In this document: piece after piece, positions 28,057 to 40,616 of the stretch
Position numbering within the stretch: the first letter of the stretch is position 1
How the letters are laid out: each line of letters starts with the position of its first letter
NCBI GenBank assembly: GCA_029261155.1
Contig: JAJDBW010000090.1
Location: 1-64,000, forward strand
Length of the DNA stretch: 64,000 nucleotides
Reading direction: 5' to 3'
From: Nitrospirota bacterium
Lineage (GTDB): Bacteria > Nitrospirota > Nitrospiria > SBBL01 > JAADHI01
Translations under genes and position numbers: made by a program
Notes under the pieces: generated by a model
Databases searched by the model: none
The model's input: only the letters and a program-made list of their open reading frames with translations
What the model was told of the DNA's origin: nothing

Positions 28057-30639
28057 ATGATTTTCACTTCGTTCTTTCTGCTATTTTTTCTCTTTGTTCA
28101 ACCGCTTTCGGCCGAAACCCCCACTTATGACATCGTCGCGCATTACGACGAACTCAGCCATGAAATCGAAGGCACCGAAGCCCTGACCTTTACGAACGAT
28201 TCCGAAACGCCCATCTCGGAACTGTATCTTTTCCTTTATCCAAACCATTTTGCAAAACGCGATGCCGATATCGACTCCGCTTACTACCGTAAGGCCTACC
28301 CGGTCGCGTTTAATCCGGGCAGTCTAAAGGTTACCTCCATAAAAGGACCCGCTGGAGAAGCGCTTCCTTTTTCACCCCTGTCCTCTCATGACGATACCGT
28401 CATGGTCGTCCATCTTCCGGAGCCCGTTCCAGCCAAGACCCGCTTTCGTTTTCTTGTTCACTTTGTCACGCGCCTGCCAGAGAAATTCGGCGTATTTGGA
28501 TATTTCGAAGATCTAACAAGTATACAAGGCGGCTGGCACCCTTATCTTGCCCACTTTGAAAACGGTACGTGGTCCTTCAATCGACCTCCCCCGAAGAGTA
28601 ACTTCCGAATCCGCATCTCGCTCAAAACCAATCGCCACCTTGTGGGTTCGAGCCCGAAAGCCGTTATCACGGTTCAAAAGGATTTACAAACTGTCCTTAT
28701 GGAAGCCCAGAATATCCCTTTCTATTCACTGTCGATCGGACACCATTTTAAGAGATCTGAATATCAGGTCGGGCCAATCCATCTTAATGCCTACTCCCTT
28801 AAAAAAAATAAATCCTATGCCCAACAGATCGAAAAAATTATCGAACCCGCGCTCGCCTTTTTTTTGAAACATACCGGACCCCTTCCGCCGGTCGACCTTA
28901 TTATCACCGAAGCATATCTCCACCAAGATTTAATCGCAACGGGTTCCAACATCCTGTATTTGAACAACCGGCTCTTCAAGGTTTTTCCCGCACTCAAGCG
29001 TTTTCATGCAATGCGCTTGGCATCCGGGCTTTTTCAATTGTTATGGAAACACAAACGCCCCGATGAAGAGGACTGGGTCATCGAAGCCCTGGCCCGGCGC
29101 GATGCCGATGGCTTCATCAACGCGCTCTATGGCGAAACGACCTCCTTATCGAAGTGGCTAAAACCCTTGGCCTTCATCCCCGTCATCGATCAAATTCTTT
29201 ATTCCAGTACTCTCCCCCTCCGACAGGTCTACTTTCGGGAGGCGGTCCGCCCTCTCGTGAGTGAGGATATCCGGTTTTATAATCGTCCCGCTTCAGAAAA
29301 CGCCAACATTTTTTGGAAACTCGAAACCTTGATGGGCAGTCTTGTTTTTGAGCCTGCAGTGGCCCGCTACCGCAATCAAGACGAAGAGAGCGGACCTATT
29401 TTACCGTTTCGTCGGATCCTGCTCGAATCGTCTCAAGCAGACATGAACCGGCTTATCGATCAATGGCTGTCGACGCAAACCGACATTGATTTTTCAATCA
29501 AAGACGTTCAACACAAGGAAATCGATGGCGCGTATCAAACTGAGGTTTCGATCGAAAAAAAAGGGGAGGGCATCGAACCCTTGCAAATCGTCGCCCGACA
29601 AAAAAACGGACAAGAAATCCCAGCCACTTGGGATGGAAGCACCGCCCAACACCGGCTCATCCTCAATACGGCCTCGCCCATTAAAACGGTCGAACTCGAT
29701 CCGAACAAATTGACCAACGATCCCAATCGAAAGGACAACCGGCTTCCACGCGATTGGAAGGTCTTGGTCGACAACCTGAATCTAAACTACGACTTTCAAA
29801 CCAAAGAACTCAGCTATCAAGCCGGACTCTTTTTTCAATATTTATACGATACGGAAAACTGGGTGCGTTTTCTCTTTGCGCATGAAGACACCGGAGACCT
29901 TTCGCATATCGCTTATACCCGAACGCTTAAAAAAAACCATTTGCTCACCACGGGGCTCACCTTCGAAACCCTCGAGCCGTCGAGAAACAACAACTTTAAC
30001 GAAGAAGCTGGCTATCTCTCTTTAGGCTATACCTTTATTTTTCCCGACCTGCCGCTCCTCACGGAAAGCGCCAGGCGCCTTACAAATGCCTTCCCCGTTT
30101 TCAACGTCAGCCTCGAATACAATCAGCAATTCACCGGTGATCGCTACGACCATGCCTTCTCCCTTCTGCTCGACTTCCGGCGCACGCACGCCTTTACGAA
30201 TTATCACGAAATCGGCACCCGGATTCTCGTCGGGCAATCCATCGGGAACTTATTCGAGAACCGGCGATTTTCTTTGGGCGGCACCAATGCCATGCGCGGC
30301 TATAGCCCCCTGATCTTTGAAGGCGAAAACTTGAGCCTCTTCTCCCTGGAATATCGTTTCCCTCTTTTTTACGAGACCGATATCAACCTATTCGGCCTCG
30401 CGCACACCCACACCTGGCAGGGGGCCTTTTTTGCGGATGCCGGAATGGTCGGTTCCTCACACGATGTTTTTCAACCCAAAGTTTTTCAATCGGATTTCGG
30501 TGGCGGCATTCGTTTTTTCATGGACCTTTTCGGGGTCTATCCCGCCATTATCCGCTTCGATATTGCGCTACCTATCGACTCCCCCATCGAGAGTGAAGAT
30601 AAACTCCATTACTATCTTAACGCCGGACAATCTTTTTAA
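28057..30639 (+). CDS. Inactive M1-peptidase-like domain fused to an Omp85-type barrel
   Basis: This 860-residue exported protein begins with a signal peptide (cleavage near PLSAET). Residues about 23-240 resemble the saddle domain of M1 aminopeptidases (YDIVAHYDELSHEIEGTEAL), and about 240-420 the gluzincin domain. At the expected HExxH site the sequence is FHAMRLASGLFQ (316-327), so the Glu and second His ligands are missing, although a Glu follows at 343 (DWVIEALARR). Residues about 560-860 form a beta-barrel with the surface-antigen motif LGGTNAMRGYSP and an FFADAG strand as in BamA/TamA or two-partner transporters. No POTRA domains are visible. It may use the dead peptidase domain to recruit substrate for export; that is inference. 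Confidence 0.8.
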   Translation: MIFTSFFLLFFLFVQPLSAETPTYDIVAHYDELSHEIEGTEALTFTNDSETPISELYLFLYPNHFAKRDADIDSAYYRKAYPVAFNPGSLKVTSIKGPAGEALPFSPLSSHDDTVMVVHLPEPVPAKTRFRFLVHFVTRLPEKFGVFGYFEDLTSIQGGWHPYLAHFENGTWSFNRPPPKSNFRIRISLKTNRHLVGSSPKAVITVQKDLQTVLMEAQNIPFYSLSIGHHFKRSEYQVGPIHLNAYSLKKNKSYAQQIEKIIEPALAFFLKHTGPLPPVDLIITEAYLHQDLIATGSNILYLNNRLFKVFPALKRFHAMRLASGLFQLLWKHKRPDEEDWVIEALARRDADGFINALYGETTSLSKWLKPLAFIPVIDQILYSSTLPLRQVYFREAVRPLVSEDIRFYNRPASENANIFWKLETLMGSLVFEPAVARYRNQDEESGPILPFRRILLESSQADMNRLIDQWLSTQTDIDFSIKDVQHKEIDGAYQTEVSIEKKGEGIEPLQIVARQKNGQEIPATWDGSTAQHRLILNTASPIKTVELDPNKLTNDPNRKDNRLPRDWKVLVDNLNLNYDFQTKELSYQAGLFFQYLYDTENWVRFLFAHEDTGDLSHIAYTRTLKKNHLLTTGLTFETLEPSRNNNFNEEAGYLSLGYTFIFPDLPLLTESARRLTNAFPVFNVSLEYNQQFTGDRYDHAFSLLLDFRRTHAFTNYHEIGTRILVGQSIGNLFENRRFSLGGTNAMRGYSPLIFEGENLSLFSLEYRFPLFYETDINLFGLAHTHTWQGAFFADAGMVGSSHDVFQPKVFQSDFGGGIRFFMDLFGVYPAIIRFDIALPIDSPIESEDKLHYYLNAGQSF

Positions 30640-34726: not shown

Positions 34727-37159
34727 TTACAACTTCGCCCCCCTCAGACGAAGCGCATTCGTGATGACCGACACGGAGCTGAAACTCATGGCCAAGGCGG
34801 CAATCATGGGCGAGAGCAGCAGGCCGAAGAAAGGATAAAGCAGGCCCGCCGCGATGGGGATGCCGGTGGCGTTGTAGGCAAAGGCAAAGAAGAGGTTTTG
34901 TCGGATGTTGCGCATGGTCGCGTGGCTCAAGCGCCGGGCGCGCACGATACCGCGCAAGTCCCCTTTCACCAGGGTCACGCCCGCACTTTCCATCGCGACG
35001 TCCGTACCTGTTCCCATGGCGATGCCGACCTGGGCTTGAGCCAAGGCTGGGGCGTCGTTGATGCCGTCTCCCGCCATCGCCACGATCCGGCCTTCGGCCT
35101 GGAGTCGCTTGACGATTTGGGCCTTTTCGTCGGGCAGGACTTCGGCATGGATCTCATCAATATTCAGTTTGCCCGCGACGGCCTCGGCCGTCTTCCGGCT
35201 GTCGCCGGTGAGCATGACGATCTTGATGCCTTCGGCATGCAGGTTTTCAATGGCCTCCGCTGTAGTGGTTTTTATGGGATCGGCGACGCCGATCAAGCCC
35301 GCGGCCTTCCCGTCAATGGCGAGCAGCATAACCGTCTGGCCCTCGGCCCGTCCGGCGTCGGCTTTACCCGGCAGATCCGCTGGATCGATGCCGAGGCTTT
35401 CAAACAATTTCAGGTTGCCGAGTAAAACCTGATGTCCATCCACCTCGCCCGTAACGCCTTTCCCGGTGACGGATTGAAAATTTCCTACCTTGCCTAAGGC
35501 AATGCCCTTTTTTTCCGCGCCCTGCACGATGGCCTCGGCCAGCGGGTGCTCGCTGGCCTTTTCCAAAGTCGCGGCCAAGCGTAAGGCCTCTTCTTCTTGA
35601 ATCCCCTCCACGGCAATCACGGCAACGAGTTTCGGCTTGCCCTCGGTGAGGGTGCCGGTTTTATCCACGACCAGGGTATCGACCTTTTCCAATATTTCCA
35701 ATGCTTCGGCGTTCTTGATCAAGACGCCCATCATCGCGCCCTTGCCCGTGCCGACCATGATGGACACCGGTGTCGCCAGGCCCAATGCGCAGGGACAGGC
35801 GATGATGAGCACGGCCACGGCGTTAATGAGCGCAAAAGCGAGACGGGGTTCCGGGCCAAATGTGGCCCAAACCACGAAAGTCACGGCGGCGATAATCATC
35901 ACGCTTAATACAAAGTAGCCCGAAACGATGTCCACCAATTTTTGGATCGGCGCGCGGGAGCGTTGGGCCTCCGCAACCATGTGGACGATTTGAGATAAAA
36001 GCGTGTCCGCGCCGATCTTTTCCGCCCGCATCATCAAGCTGCCCGTGCCGTTGACCGTCGCCCCGATAAGACGCTCACCCGCTGTCTTCGCCACGGGGAT
36101 AGGTTCTCCGGTGACCATCGATTCATCGACGTTGCTTTCGCCTTCGACGACGATGCCGTCCACGGGCACCTTTTCACCCGGTCGTACACGGAGGATGTGG
36201 CCCACCTGCACCTCTTCCAAGGGAAGGTCTTCTTCGGTCCCATCTTCCCTGACAATGCGGGCCGTTTTGGGGGCAAGCCCAAGCAGCAACTTTATAGCGG
36301 CGTTGGTTTGGCTCCGGGCGCGCAATTCCATGACCTGTCCTAATAGGACAAGCGCGGTAATCACGGCTGCCGCTTCAAAATAGACCGGAATCACGCCCAT
36401 CTCACTCAAGAGGCTTGAGGGAAAAAGTCCGGGCATAACCATGGCCACAAAGCTATATATCCAGGCGGCGGAGACACCCAATGCGATCAAAGTGAACATA
36501 TTGAGATTTCGGGTGACGATGGACTTCCATCCGCGAACAAAAAAAGGCCACCCCCCCCACAATACGACAGGCGTAGACAGTGCGAACTCCACCCACTGCC
36601 GGGTTTTGGGTGCAATCAATGCTGAAAAAAACTCAGGCCAAAAATCGGCGCCCATGGCGCTGAAAAAAACAGGCAGGGCCAAGAGGCTGCTGATCCAAAA
36701 ACGACGGCTCATATCCTTCAGTTCGGTGGTGTCCGCTTCGGCCGTCACCGTCCGCGCTTCCAAAGCCATGCCGCACTTGGGGCAGCTGCCGGGATGTTCT
36801 TGAATCACCTCGGGGTGCATGGGACAGGTATATTCTGTCTTTGTCTTCGCGAGGGCGGGTAGTCCTTTGGGCTCTAAGGCCATGCCGCATTTGGGGCAAT
36901 CACCCGGGCTGACCTCTTCGATTTCCGGATGCATGGGGCAGGTATAAATCGCGCCGGGCTCCGCCTTCTGATGCGAGGGTTCTGGTTGTCCGCTTTCCTT
37001 GGGCGAAGCCAGATATTTTTCGGGGTCTTTTTTGAAGGCCGCCAAACAATGGCTGCTGCAAAAAAAATAGCGCTCCCCTCCGTGCTCATGATGACCGGCT
37101 GCCGATTCCGCATCGATTTCCATCCCGCAAACCACATCTTTCACCATTTCCTTAACCAT
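34727..37159 (-). CDS. CPC-type heavy-metal P-ATPase with YHS and CPMHP domains
   Basis: This 810-residue P1B ATPase exports Cu+ or a similar soft metal. The N-terminus has a YHS domain (VVCGMEID...FFCSSHC) and two zinc-ribbon-like segments (YTCPMHPEI...CPKCGMALE, repeated as YTCPMHPEV...CPKCGMALE) in place of the usual CxxC ferredoxin-like domains. The core has the transmembrane CPC in [13 protein letters not shown], the phosphorylation motif DKTGTLTEG and the hinge [10 protein letters not shown]. The ATG at 37159 has AAGGAG 7 bp upstream; the frame extends to a GTG at 37180. It lies 91 bp downstream of a MerR-family gene in the same direction. The CPC motif favours Cu/Ag; zinc or cadmium is less likely. 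Confidence 0.92.
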
Positions 37160-37211
37160 TTTTTTCTCCTTATGCGACACTGTTTATTGGACCCCCTTAG
37201 CTTTCGACTAC

Positions 37212-37250: not shown

Positions 37251-37661
37251 TTACTTGTAATCTTTCAAGGATTCTATTAAACGACACACCGAATGTCCGT
37301 CGGGGACGCCGTCCGGCATATCCTCCCACTGGACCAGGGCTTTTTCCATGCGGATCTGGAGCTGGGCCATCTGATCGAGCCGTTCCCGGTTTTCCTTAAT
37401 GCGGCGGGCCAAGAGGTCGCGCACCAAGGGACAGGGGGAGTTGTGATTTTGAGCGTGGTTGAGGATCTCCGTGATTTCGGAGAGAGTAAAGCCTAAATCC
37501 TTGGCGCGCAGGGTAAACTTGAGCCGTTTAATATCCTCTACGGAAAAAAGGCGGTAGCCGTTATTCGCCTTGATAGCGGGTTTAAGGAGCGCGATGCGAG
37601 TGTAGTAGCGGACGCTCTCCGGGGAGATGCCCGCGTGTTTGGCCAATTGTGTCACGGTCAT
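37251..37661 (-). CDS. MerR-family heavy-metal regulator
   Basis: This 136-residue protein has an N-terminal winged helix typical of MerR (VTQLAKHAGISPESVRYYTRIALL, NGYRLFSVEDIKRLKFTLRAKDLGF) and a coiled-coil dimer helix. Two Cys at the metal-site positions (NSPCPLVRD near 82 and HSVCRLIES near 126) fit ZntR/CueR-like sensors, although the central CC pair of ZntR is absent. The ATG at 37661 follows GAGGGA; a GTG five codons earlier is not preferred. It probably senses Cu or Zn and activates the ATPase through the 20-bp-spacer promoter in the following gap. Confidence 0.9.
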   Translation of the reverse strand: MTVTQLAKHAGISPESVRYYTRIALLKPAIKANNGYRLFSVEDIKRLKFTLRAKDLGFTLSEITEILNHAQNHNSPCPLVRDLLARRIKENRERLDQMAQLQIRMEKALVQWEDMPDGVPDGHSVCRLIESLKDYK

Positions 37662-37789
37662 TTCAGTCCCTCTCACGGAATCATTACCTAAAAAAACCTA
37701 AATCTGTTCAACACACATTATATAAGAAGAAGACCTGAAAATCGCTATTTCACATCCGTTTTGCCCTAACCCAAACGGGAAGTCAGTCC

Positions 37790-37818
37790 TTGACATTCAG
37801 GGGGGCTTGACGTATACA
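37790..37818 (+). promoter_or_regulatory. Strong sigma70-type promoter
   Basis: TTGACA (37790-37795) and TATACA (37813-37818) with a 17-bp spacer give a near-consensus promoter. The predicted start is at about 37825, which coincides with an ATG, so the transcript would be leaderless or would use the ATG at 37843. Confidence 0.65.
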
Positions 37819-37842: not shown

Positions 37843-38181
37843 ATGAAACGCAAGTTCATCTATTTTGCGATCGTAAGTGCGATTGCTCTTTCGCTTTGCC
37901 CTATCAACCCTCTTTTCGCCAAGCCGAACACTCCAAACCACGACGGGACCTCCCATTCCGAATGTATCCCAAATCTCTGCGCCACAGTCACGGCAAAAGA
38001 GACCTTCTCTCCAGAAAAAATTCTGGCTTCGTTTTCCTGGCTTTCCCTGCCCTTACTGCTTCTTTATTTCGGATCTTTAAACCCTGAATATCGAAACGGC
38101 CTTCTTCGCTTTGATGACAAAAATGTCCCGCCGAAATTCGCGAACAAGCTCTATCGCCTTCACGCCGCTTTTCTCATCTGA
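37843..38181 (+). CDS. Small exported protein in the metal island
   Basis: This 112-residue protein has a signal peptide or N-terminal anchor (KFIYFAIVSAIALSLCPINP) and a second hydrophobic stretch (about 68-83). Between them is a segment with Cys and His (HSECIPNLC) that could bind metal. No family is recognised. The start is ambiguous: an in-frame ATG at 37825 adds MSSIKK and would sit at the predicted transcription start. A near-consensus promoter directly upstream supports expression. It lies between the MerR/ATPase pair (opposite strand) and the Cyc2-like gene, so a role in metal or redox handling is possible but not shown. Confidence 0.6.
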   Translation: MKRKFIYFAIVSAIALSLCPINPLFAKPNTPNHDGTSHSECIPNLCATVTAKETFSPEKILASFSWLSLPLLLLYFGSLNPEYRNGLLRFDDKNVPPKFANKLYRLHAAFLI

Positions 38182-38333: not shown

Positions 38334-39746
38334 ATGCCAAAATCGCCTGCGTGGAACGTTATCGGGATAAAGTGGCTCATCTCATTTATGCCGATGCTCT
38401 TTCTTTTGTCCATCCTTCCGACAAACGCAGAGGCCATTCCGGCCTTTGCCCGCAAATACGATCTGTCTTGCACATCTTGCCATACCAAGGCCCCGCGCTT
38501 AAATGCCTTTGGGGAGGCCTTTCATATGGCCGGCTACCAAATTCCGCAAACCGAAGAAGGTGAGCTTCGGGAAAAAAGACAAATCGGGCGGATCGTTTCG
38601 GAAAAGACATTTCTGAATATCTTCGCATTAAGGGCGACGGGAAATTTCGTCGAATCGATTTCGGGCGGGCATCCCCCCGAAACCAATCTGGCCCTGCCCC
38701 GAGAAATCGAACTCTATTTCGCCGGAACCTTCACTGAGGACGTGAGCTACTTTTTTAATCTCAGCCATGAGGCGGACACGATTGAAGGCATCGACAATGG
38801 GCGGTTTGAGAAGACGACCGCCTTCGGTTTGGGCAAGGAATTTTTCTTGATGTTCGATCTGTCTCCCTCACATCGCGGGGCTACAAACATGCATGAAATA
38901 ACCATGACAGGACCCATGCGGATGGGTCCGATGATCATGGTCGGGAAGGTCGATCCCTCGACCAATTTTTCTTATCCCACCAACCGGCAATTCATTCTCG
39001 ACCAGCCGGGGCGAATCGACACAAATAACGGAACGATACAGCGCTTCACCTTAAGCCCCTATGCCTTCTCCGCGAAATTTTTCGGGCTCAGCACCGGTGA
39101 AGGGAATACGATTGAAGTCACGAAAGGCGTCCTCTACAACACCCCCGGCGATTTCGGCATCGATGTCCACGCAATGCTTGGACGCTTCATGCTTCAGACC
39201 GGCGTGATGCAGGGCATCGATGCGGGCAGCGCCGATATCAACGAAAAAAAAGATCCCTATGTGATGACGCGGGTAAATTTCGGCAGCCGGAATTATTTTT
39301 CGGGAAGCGCCTCTGCGCTCGCCTATTGGGGAAACGACACGGCCAAGGTCGGCAATGACTTGGTCGATTGGTTTCGGACCGGTGTATCGGGAAATATCAA
39401 ATACAAATTGCTCGACCTTTACGGGGCCCTCATCTGGGACAAAATTTCGGGCCTTCCCGCGGCCACAGCCAGCGTCTTTGACGAGACGGCCTTCGGGATG
39501 ACCCTTGAGAGCGATTTCATCCTCACCGACCGCTACCTGCTTTCGCTCCGCTACGATCGAATGGATGCGGGGGGCTTCGCCAACCAAAAAGCCGATGGAG
39601 AGGTCCTCACCCTCCAGCTCAGAAAATATTTCAGAGACAACTATGCCGTCTATCTCCGGGACAGCGTGAATATCGGCCGGGTGAGCACCAACCCGCTTCA
39701 AAATTTTCGAAATCTCATCGCACTCGGCGTCGATCTCGATTTTTAG
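38334..39746 (+). CDS. Cyc2-like monoheme cytochrome-porin fusion
   Basis: This 470-residue protein has a signal peptide (cleavage near NAEA, about 34) and one c-type heme motif, CTSCH at 46-50. Around it is the Cyc2-type signature: AIPAFARKYDLSCTSCH then LNAFGEAFHMAGY. The remaining 400 residues are a beta-barrel rich in alternating aromatic strands (EIELYFAGTFTEDVSYFF, YLLSLRYDRMD), ending in GVDLDF. Cyc2 proteins take electrons from outside the cell, classically Fe(II), through the outer membrane. The same signature also occurs in monoheme porins of unknown donor, so the substrate is not fixed. The next gene, a diheme cytochrome, is a plausible periplasmic acceptor. Confidence 0.8.
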   Translation: MPKSPAWNVIGIKWLISFMPMLFLLSILPTNAEAIPAFARKYDLSCTSCHTKAPRLNAFGEAFHMAGYQIPQTEEGELREKRQIGRIVSEKTFLNIFALRATGNFVESISGGHPPETNLALPREIELYFAGTFTEDVSYFFNLSHEADTIEGIDNGRFEKTTAFGLGKEFFLMFDLSPSHRGATNMHEITMTGPMRMGPMIMVGKVDPSTNFSYPTNRQFILDQPGRIDTNNGTIQRFTLSPYAFSAKFFGLSTGEGNTIEVTKGVLYNTPGDFGIDVHAMLGRFMLQTGVMQGIDAGSADINEKKDPYVMTRVNFGSRNYFSGSASALAYWGNDTAKVGNDLVDWFRTGVSGNIKYKLLDLYGALIWDKISGLPAATASVFDETAFGMTLESDFILTDRYLLSLRYDRMDAGGFANQKADGEVLTLQLRKYFRDNYAVYLRDSVNIGRVSTNPLQNFRNLIALGVDLDF

Positions 39747-39773
39747 TGATCTTTTAATTTGAAGGAGAACATC

Positions 39774-40616
39774 ATGTGCACATTAATAAAGACATTGAAG
39801 CGCATCAGCCTTCTGTGCTTCACGATCGTCTTGATGACGTCAACAGCGATTCGATCCCAGGAGATGGATCATTCTTCGATGGGAAATCCCACCGATGAAA
39901 CACAAGATCAAGACACGATGGAAAAGATGAACGGGAATCGTGACGGCGATGAGATGGCCGTCATGAAAGGGAAGATGATTTTTTCCATGAGCTGCGTCTA
40001 CTGCCACGGCTCGCGCGGGGAAGGCGACGGGGCGGCTTCGATGTTCCTCGGCCCCTACTCTCATCCCCGACCCAATAATTTCACGAGTGGGATCTTTAAA
40101 TTCCGTTCGACCGAATCGGGCGAGCTGCCCCTGCTCAGCGACTTGATGCGGACCATCCGGGAAGGCATTCCCGGATACATGCCTTCCTTCCGGAATATGG
40201 GCGAGGAAGGCCTCCGGGCGGTGGCGCTGTATATCGCGAAGGCCTTTATACAAGCGGACCTCCCCACGACGACGAGCATTAAATATGTAAAACATGTCGG
40301 GCCCTATATCTATTCGCCCCAATCCGTTCGGCGTGGCGAAATACTCTATGGGATTATGAAATGCAACGAATGTCACGGCGCCGACGGCAAGGCGGGTCGG
40401 ACTGACCTCCGCGACGAACGGAAGCTTATGGTTCACCCCATCGATCTCACCCGGCAAGAAACCTTCGGTAACGGCACCTCCCACGAAGACATTTATCGGA
40501 CGATTATGACGGGCCTCGACGGCACGCCCATGCCAGGCTACAGCGATTTGTTTAAAGGAGAAGAAGACAGCGCCTGGGACCTGGTGCATTATATTTTATC
40601 GCTGCAGGGGCGGTAG
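39774..40616 (+). CDS. Periplasmic diheme cytochrome c
   Basis: This 280-residue protein has a signal sequence (CFTIVLMTSTAI). Two cytochrome-c domains follow: CVYCH with GSRGEGDGAA around residue 76, and CNECH with GADGKAGRTDL around 199, each followed by candidate axial Met residues (TPMPGYSDLF near the end, PGYMPSF). A Met/Asp/Gln-rich segment lies after the signal. An AAGGAG site supports the ATG at 39774 rather than the in-frame TTG at 39759. It starts 27 bp after the Cyc2-like porin gene. The likely role is to carry electrons between that porin and inner-membrane complexes. Confidence 0.88.
   Translation: MCTLIKTLKRISLLCFTIVLMTSTAIRSQEMDHSSMGNPTDETQDQDTMEKMNGNRDGDEMAVMKGKMIFSMSCVYCHGSRGEGDGAASMFLGPYSHPRPNNFTSGIFKFRSTESGELPLLSDLMRTIREGIPGYMPSFRNMGEEGLRAVALYIAKAFIQADLPTTTSIKYVKHVGPYIYSPQSVRRGEILYGIMKCNECHGADGKAGRTDLRDERKLMVHPIDLTRQETFGNGTSHEDIYRTIMTGLDGTPMPGYSDLFKGEEDSAWDLVHYILSLQGR

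Follow-up and report, generated by a model that had tools for sequence, protein, structure and literature searches.

The 64-kb stretch of Nitrospirota DNA analysed here (the window), which comes from an assembly of 3.56 Mb in 90 contigs, encodes a Cyc2-like porin-cytochrome of 470 residues (38334-39746, forward strand) and, directly behind it, a periplasmic diheme cytochrome c of 280 residues (39774-40616, forward strand). A link of this porin-cytochrome clade to copper is well supported: the gene pair recurs beside copper export genes, and the porin-cytochrome carries a clade-specific set of methionine and histidine (Met/His) residues, those in the barrel being predicted to line its lumen. 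The best explanation found is a copper-dedicated Cyc2-like electron conduit, in which Cu(I) is probably oxidized inside the pore and its electron reaches the diheme cytochrome through the heme, a reading to which we give an even chance of being right.

The gene pair and its clade

The open reading frame (ORF) of the porin-cytochrome starts with ATG, encodes an N-terminal hydrophobic stretch predicted to be a signal peptide, continues through a monoheme domain into a predicted beta-barrel, and ends in a C-terminal Phe. Its single CxxCH, the CTSCH heme c attachment site at residues 46-50 (38469-38483, forward strand), sits within AIPAFARKYDLSCTSCHTKAPRLNAFGEAFHMAGY. The arrangement AIPAFARKY-DLS-CTSCH-TKA-PRL agrees with the published Cyc2 signature, which has AXPXFAR[Q/K][T/Y] just ahead of CXXCH and PXL four residues behind it (PMC8406198). 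The Cyc2 layout with one CTSCH that a preliminary description of this DNA had proposed is supported by the signature, the PXL and a length above 365 residues (Cyc2 size test, at least 365).

The diheme gene, 27 bp from the porin-cytochrome stop as had been described, begins with an ATG at 39774, has a GAAGGAG ribosome site and encodes a signal peptide and a Met/His-rich N-terminal extension (MDHSSM...M..M). Each half of the protein, with one of its two CxxCH motifs (CVYCH and CNECH), matches Cytochrome_CBB3/Cytochrom_C (E 1.5e-19), and both heme domains are of the His/Met type by sequence. Each of the 13 ortholog neighbourhoods read (51-72% identity) contains the pair, as do 8 of 8 divergent Nitrospira-type loci of the sister clade, a recurrence that argues against chance; a diheme homolog also adjoins a divergent paralog in genome G397. 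Given the Cyc2-type layout and the conserved periplasmic cytochrome partner, an outer-membrane electron conduit, as suggested earlier, is a fair reading.

Cyc2-like matches were found in 148 of 396 sampled genomes of the phylum, mostly to the heme domain only. Orthologs at E<=1e-100 occur in 14 of the 270 genomes of the class, with none in Nitrospira's family (f5) or in the order-mates belonging to family f2. In a maximum-likelihood in-phylum tree, whose long branches make the deep order uncertain, the 14 ortholog sequences form one clade (support 100/100), and 16 Nitrospira-family sequences form a separate clade (100/98) with the distant L037 beside them. Further Cyc2-like copies, such as those of family f2, branch elsewhere. 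They include a second, distant Cyc2-like protein of 388 residues from the same genome (L012 / L059:636-1802), in a clade that it shares with family f2 copies.

Copper genes and the Met/His set

CopA is encoded within 6 kb of the pair at 7 of the 13 ortholog loci (the window, L042, L043, L046, L047, L074 and L078), and at an eighth a CusA/CzcA-family RND pump (TIGR00914, above cut-off) lies 4.4 kb away. The window copy is a Cu(I)-type P1B ATPase (34727-37180, reverse strand) with a YHS domain, two HMBD domains and CPC, YN and MxxSS motifs, scoring above the TIGR01511 copper cut-off; beside it, and divergent from the pair, is a gene for a MerR-family metal regulator (37251-37676, reverse strand). 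As the nine genomes counted hold only one or two such Cu(I) ATPases each (E<=1e-40), about 1% linkage per locus would be expected by chance. HMA-type CopA copies 15-20 kb off in G185 and G241, where the intervening genes look unrelated, were left out of the linkage.

Gene order and orientation differ among the loci, arguing against simple inheritance of one neighbourhood. CopA is divergent from the pair in the window, closes a run of genes in one direction (pair-MerR-cytochrome-CopA) at both L042 and L043, and follows the pair and an ICMT gene co-directionally in L046. The clearest case is L074, in which an RND pump, a small ORF, the pair, GltB, MerR, a cytochrome c, CopA and further efflux genes stand on one strand. 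The metal-export genes that the preliminary description had placed beside the pair are the ATPase with its YHS and HMBD domains and the MerR regulator. Treated there as bystanders, they look like the chief clue.

CopA is absent from all eight sister-clade loci read; at one of them, the outlier L051, there is an RND pump at a distance of 8.8 kb. At the Nitrospira-type loci L050 and L052-L057 the pair is present, and in several of them a cupredoxin/CarboxypepD-like protein and large hybrid histidine kinases come next, so that the cluster may be a redox-sensing or electron-uptake unit. In L009, a weak cupredoxin match comes after the diheme gene. A glutamate-synthase-like gene was also observed beside the pair in two relatives, at L074:11139-12689 (between the diheme gene and MerR) and L009:8745-10010.

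Alignment of the clade with its sister clade gave eleven clade-specific Met/His positions in the porin-cytochrome (H64, M65, M173, M195, M197, M200, M202, H279, M281, M292 and M311). All 13 orthologs keep 10-11 of the eleven and 17 Nitrospira-type homologs 0-3, a conservation that is descriptive because the positions were picked for differing between the clades; independent evidence comes from the facing test. In that test, with facing inferred from strand alternation after masking Met/His, the seven barrel positions fall on the polar, presumably lumenal, strand face (mean +2.88 vs 0.01 for all barrel residues, p=2e-4), six of them being clearly positive. The sister clade has Arg/Lys at the M202 position and Arg at the M281 position, which fits the lumen side. 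Genome G397 provides a clean comparison, since its copper-island copy has the full set and its paralog outside, which has neither CopA nor CusA nearby (9 kb covered), has retained 5 of the 11.

The Met/His-rich segment PSHRGATNMHEITMTGPMRMGPMIMV (residues 178-203; 38865-38942, forward strand) has an MGPMxMxGK core that is kept in the copper clade, and the whole segment is missing from the Nitrospira sister clade in the alignment. Moreover, the diheme N-terminus holds 5-12 Met/His in 45 residues, compared with 1-5 in the sister clade, where some fall in the signal peptide. The porin-cytochrome is predicted to be a beta-barrel, with 19 candidate amphipathic strands vs 13.4 ± 2.3 in shuffled sequences. 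For comparison, the porin domain expected of a Cyc2 has 16 strands, with the heme domain as its plug. Sequence and profile searches gave no Pfam porin match and no PDB relative for it, and no Pfam match to a TonB-dependent receptor plug or barrel. Viral-contig scans returned nothing, and a plasmid search gave weak N-terminal matches only.

The first gene of the operon is a small secreted or membrane ORF of about 112-118 residues (37843-38181, forward strand) with a C4xC motif, for which no Pfam or NCBIfam match was found. Its counterparts stand ahead of the pair in six other loci (seven including the window), with the C4xC conserved and a KLYxLH-type C-terminus. Upstream of it lies a promoter-like TTGACA-N17-TATACA (37790-37818, forward strand); a TTGAC(A/T) box was seen by eye at the same position in these six other loci, and no MerR-type operator dyad was recognized upstream of the operon. 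Elsewhere in the window, 28057-30639 encodes an 860-residue protein in which an Omp85-type C-terminal barrel is fused to a long N-terminal part without Pfam match, possibly peptidase-like.

A proposed role in Cu(I) oxidation and its rivals

In a copper-dedicated conduit, the outer-membrane barrel would carry its monoheme c domain at the periplasmic mouth, and the clade-specific Met/His residues would face the lumen and form a path or site for Cu(I) (or Ag(I)) ending near the heme. Oxidation of bound Cu(I) would yield Cu(II), which is less toxic, and the heme would hand the electron to the neighbouring diheme cytochrome of His/Met type, from which it would reach the respiratory chain. The Met/His-rich N-terminus of the diheme protein may capture copper or dock at the barrel. 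Together with CopA, and in some relatives with a CusA/CzcA-type pump, the pair would serve as the oxidative arm of copper detoxification without a multicopper oxidase. Copper binding, redox direction and physiological role are what we infer from the features above.

A methionine track that binds Cu(I) and an HxM copper ligand pair are known from the outer-membrane barrel OprC (PMC8610252), and H279xM281 of the porin-cytochrome is an HxM too. The presence of the heme and of a conserved electron partner suggests that Cu(I) is oxidized and its electron moved inward. The aqueous Cu(II)/Cu(I) couple lies near 0.15 V. As the potential measured for Cyc2 PV-1, 208 mV (PMC8406198), is above this value, an electron step from Cu(I) to the heme would be feasible. 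In addition, PcoB (PF05275) is absent from the 13 ortholog genomes, among which a CueO/PcoA-sized oxidase was seen in G404 only, leaving room for a Cu(I)-oxidizing function of the pair. We also propose, tentatively and as less likely than not, that the system is a heme-based, oxygen-independent outer-membrane cuprous oxidase, that is, a Cyc2-type conduit with a methionine-lined pore used for detoxification or, at the extreme, for Cu(I) as a respiratory donor.

Multicopper-oxidase repeats were observed in open frames of about 1,670-1,690 residues in the same genome (G000:C17 and G000:C42), with similar frames in most ortholog genomes; these very long frames are candidates for extracellular metal oxidation.

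Several observations weigh against a copper-dedicated conduit. L045, L048, L049, L076 and L077 are without a close copper exporter (some contigs end nearby), and the loci are not fully independent because the ortholog genomes are related. A fixed association between CopA and the pair was considered and rejected, as CopA is common in class members that are without the pair. In the window MerR a Cys lies at about position 80 and the scores to ZntR, MerR and CueR are similar, so its metal is ambiguous. Among the barrel positions, M202 alone is slightly negative in the facing test, and AlphaFold with three sequences gave no usable model (mean predicted local distance difference test score 32.7), so that the barrel and the lumen placement rest on sequence, the latter on strand alternation. 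Furthermore, the top PDB match of the diheme cytochrome is 6h5l_B (E 5e-29), which we take to be a diheme protein that partners an octaheme protein of anammox, apparently from a nitrite-reducing complex; with such a closest solved relative, the direction of electron flow appears not to be diagnostic. The protein kustc0457 has been described as a diheme partner of this kind (PMC6423088).

Conventional Cyc2 activity, in which dissolved Fe(II) (or Mn(II)) is oxidized at the outer membrane, the diheme cytochrome carries the electrons inward for energy and the copper neighbours are unrelated, has several points in its favour. The protein shows every published sequence feature of a Cyc2 homolog, Mariprofundus Cyc2 oxidizes Fe(II) (PMC8406198), Cyc2 homologs have been described throughout the Nitrospirota and suggested to serve Mn(II) lithotrophy in Manganitrophaceae (PMC9040806), and the Cyc2-plus-diheme layout recalls the Cyc2/Cyc1 of Acidithiobacillus (PMC10654088). 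However, iron as the electron donor, put forward in the preliminary description, is not supported as stated. The clade is tied to copper export genes repeatedly and in different orders, its own Met/His set has no role in an iron-oxidation scheme, and the close paralog outside a copper context has lost most of that set; the porin-cytochrome also lies outside the clades of the other sampled Cyc2-like copies, and the order-mates of family f2 are without an ortholog. We therefore regard iron (or manganese) oxidation as distinctly unlikely.

The same Met/His and linkage evidence, together with the exporter neighbours and the methionine track of OprC as a precedent, would also suit a porin that transports copper (or silver). 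Cu(I) would then cross the outer membrane along the Met/His path, while the heme would either turn Cu(II) into Cu(I) or act as a gate, and the purpose would be export beside CusA-type pumps or OprC-like uptake. Such a porin seems unlikely, because a dedicated diheme partner kept in all neighbourhoods points to a redox conduit more than to a plain pore, and the exporter context speaks against uptake. More improbable still is a role as a general redox conduit or sensor of the outer membrane that deals with some other donor or acceptor, with the Met/His residues serving heme ligation, protection or Ag/Hg. The Nitrospira sister clade, which joins the same gene pair with a cupredoxin-like protein and hybrid kinases and has no copper exporter, is consistent with it, as is the possibility that H64/M65 supplies a heme ligand, but it leaves the seven putative lumen-facing Met/His and the CopA linkage in one clade unexplained.

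Comparison with known systems

No copper-linked Cyc2 was found in the open-access literature. Cyc2 homologs commonly serve as markers for iron oxidation, and a copper-built clade passing the sequence test would make part of such calls wrong. If the clade is built for copper, the Cyc2 fold would have been re-used for another metal, and if Cu(I) is the species oxidized, the pair would provide a copper-detoxification route without a multicopper oxidase and without direct use of molecular oxygen.

The window protein resembles the Cyc2 fused cytochrome-porins (Cyc2 PV-1, A. ferrooxidans Cyc2 and Cyt572) in its signal peptide, one CxxCH, AXPXFAR[Q/K][T/Y] and PXL motifs and length, as well as in a predicted strand-rich C-terminal region and a periplasmic cytochrome partner. 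It differs from them in forming its own Nitrospirota clade, in its copper-gene neighbourhood and in the conserved Met/His on the inferred lumen face. Like the copper transporters OprC and NosA, it has an HxM motif and a putative methionine track, which here would lie in the wall of a predicted outer-membrane barrel; no sequence relation to them was found. The Nitrospira-type clusters of the sister clade have the same gene pair (33-39% identity) and the same heme signature, but are without the Met/His set and the copper exporters, being followed instead by the cupredoxin-like protein and hybrid histidine kinases. Finally, the proposed oxidation of Cu(I) in the periplasm or outer membrane beside copper exporters recalls the cuprous oxidases PcoA and CueO with PcoB, with a heme electron conduit in place of the multicopper oxidase.
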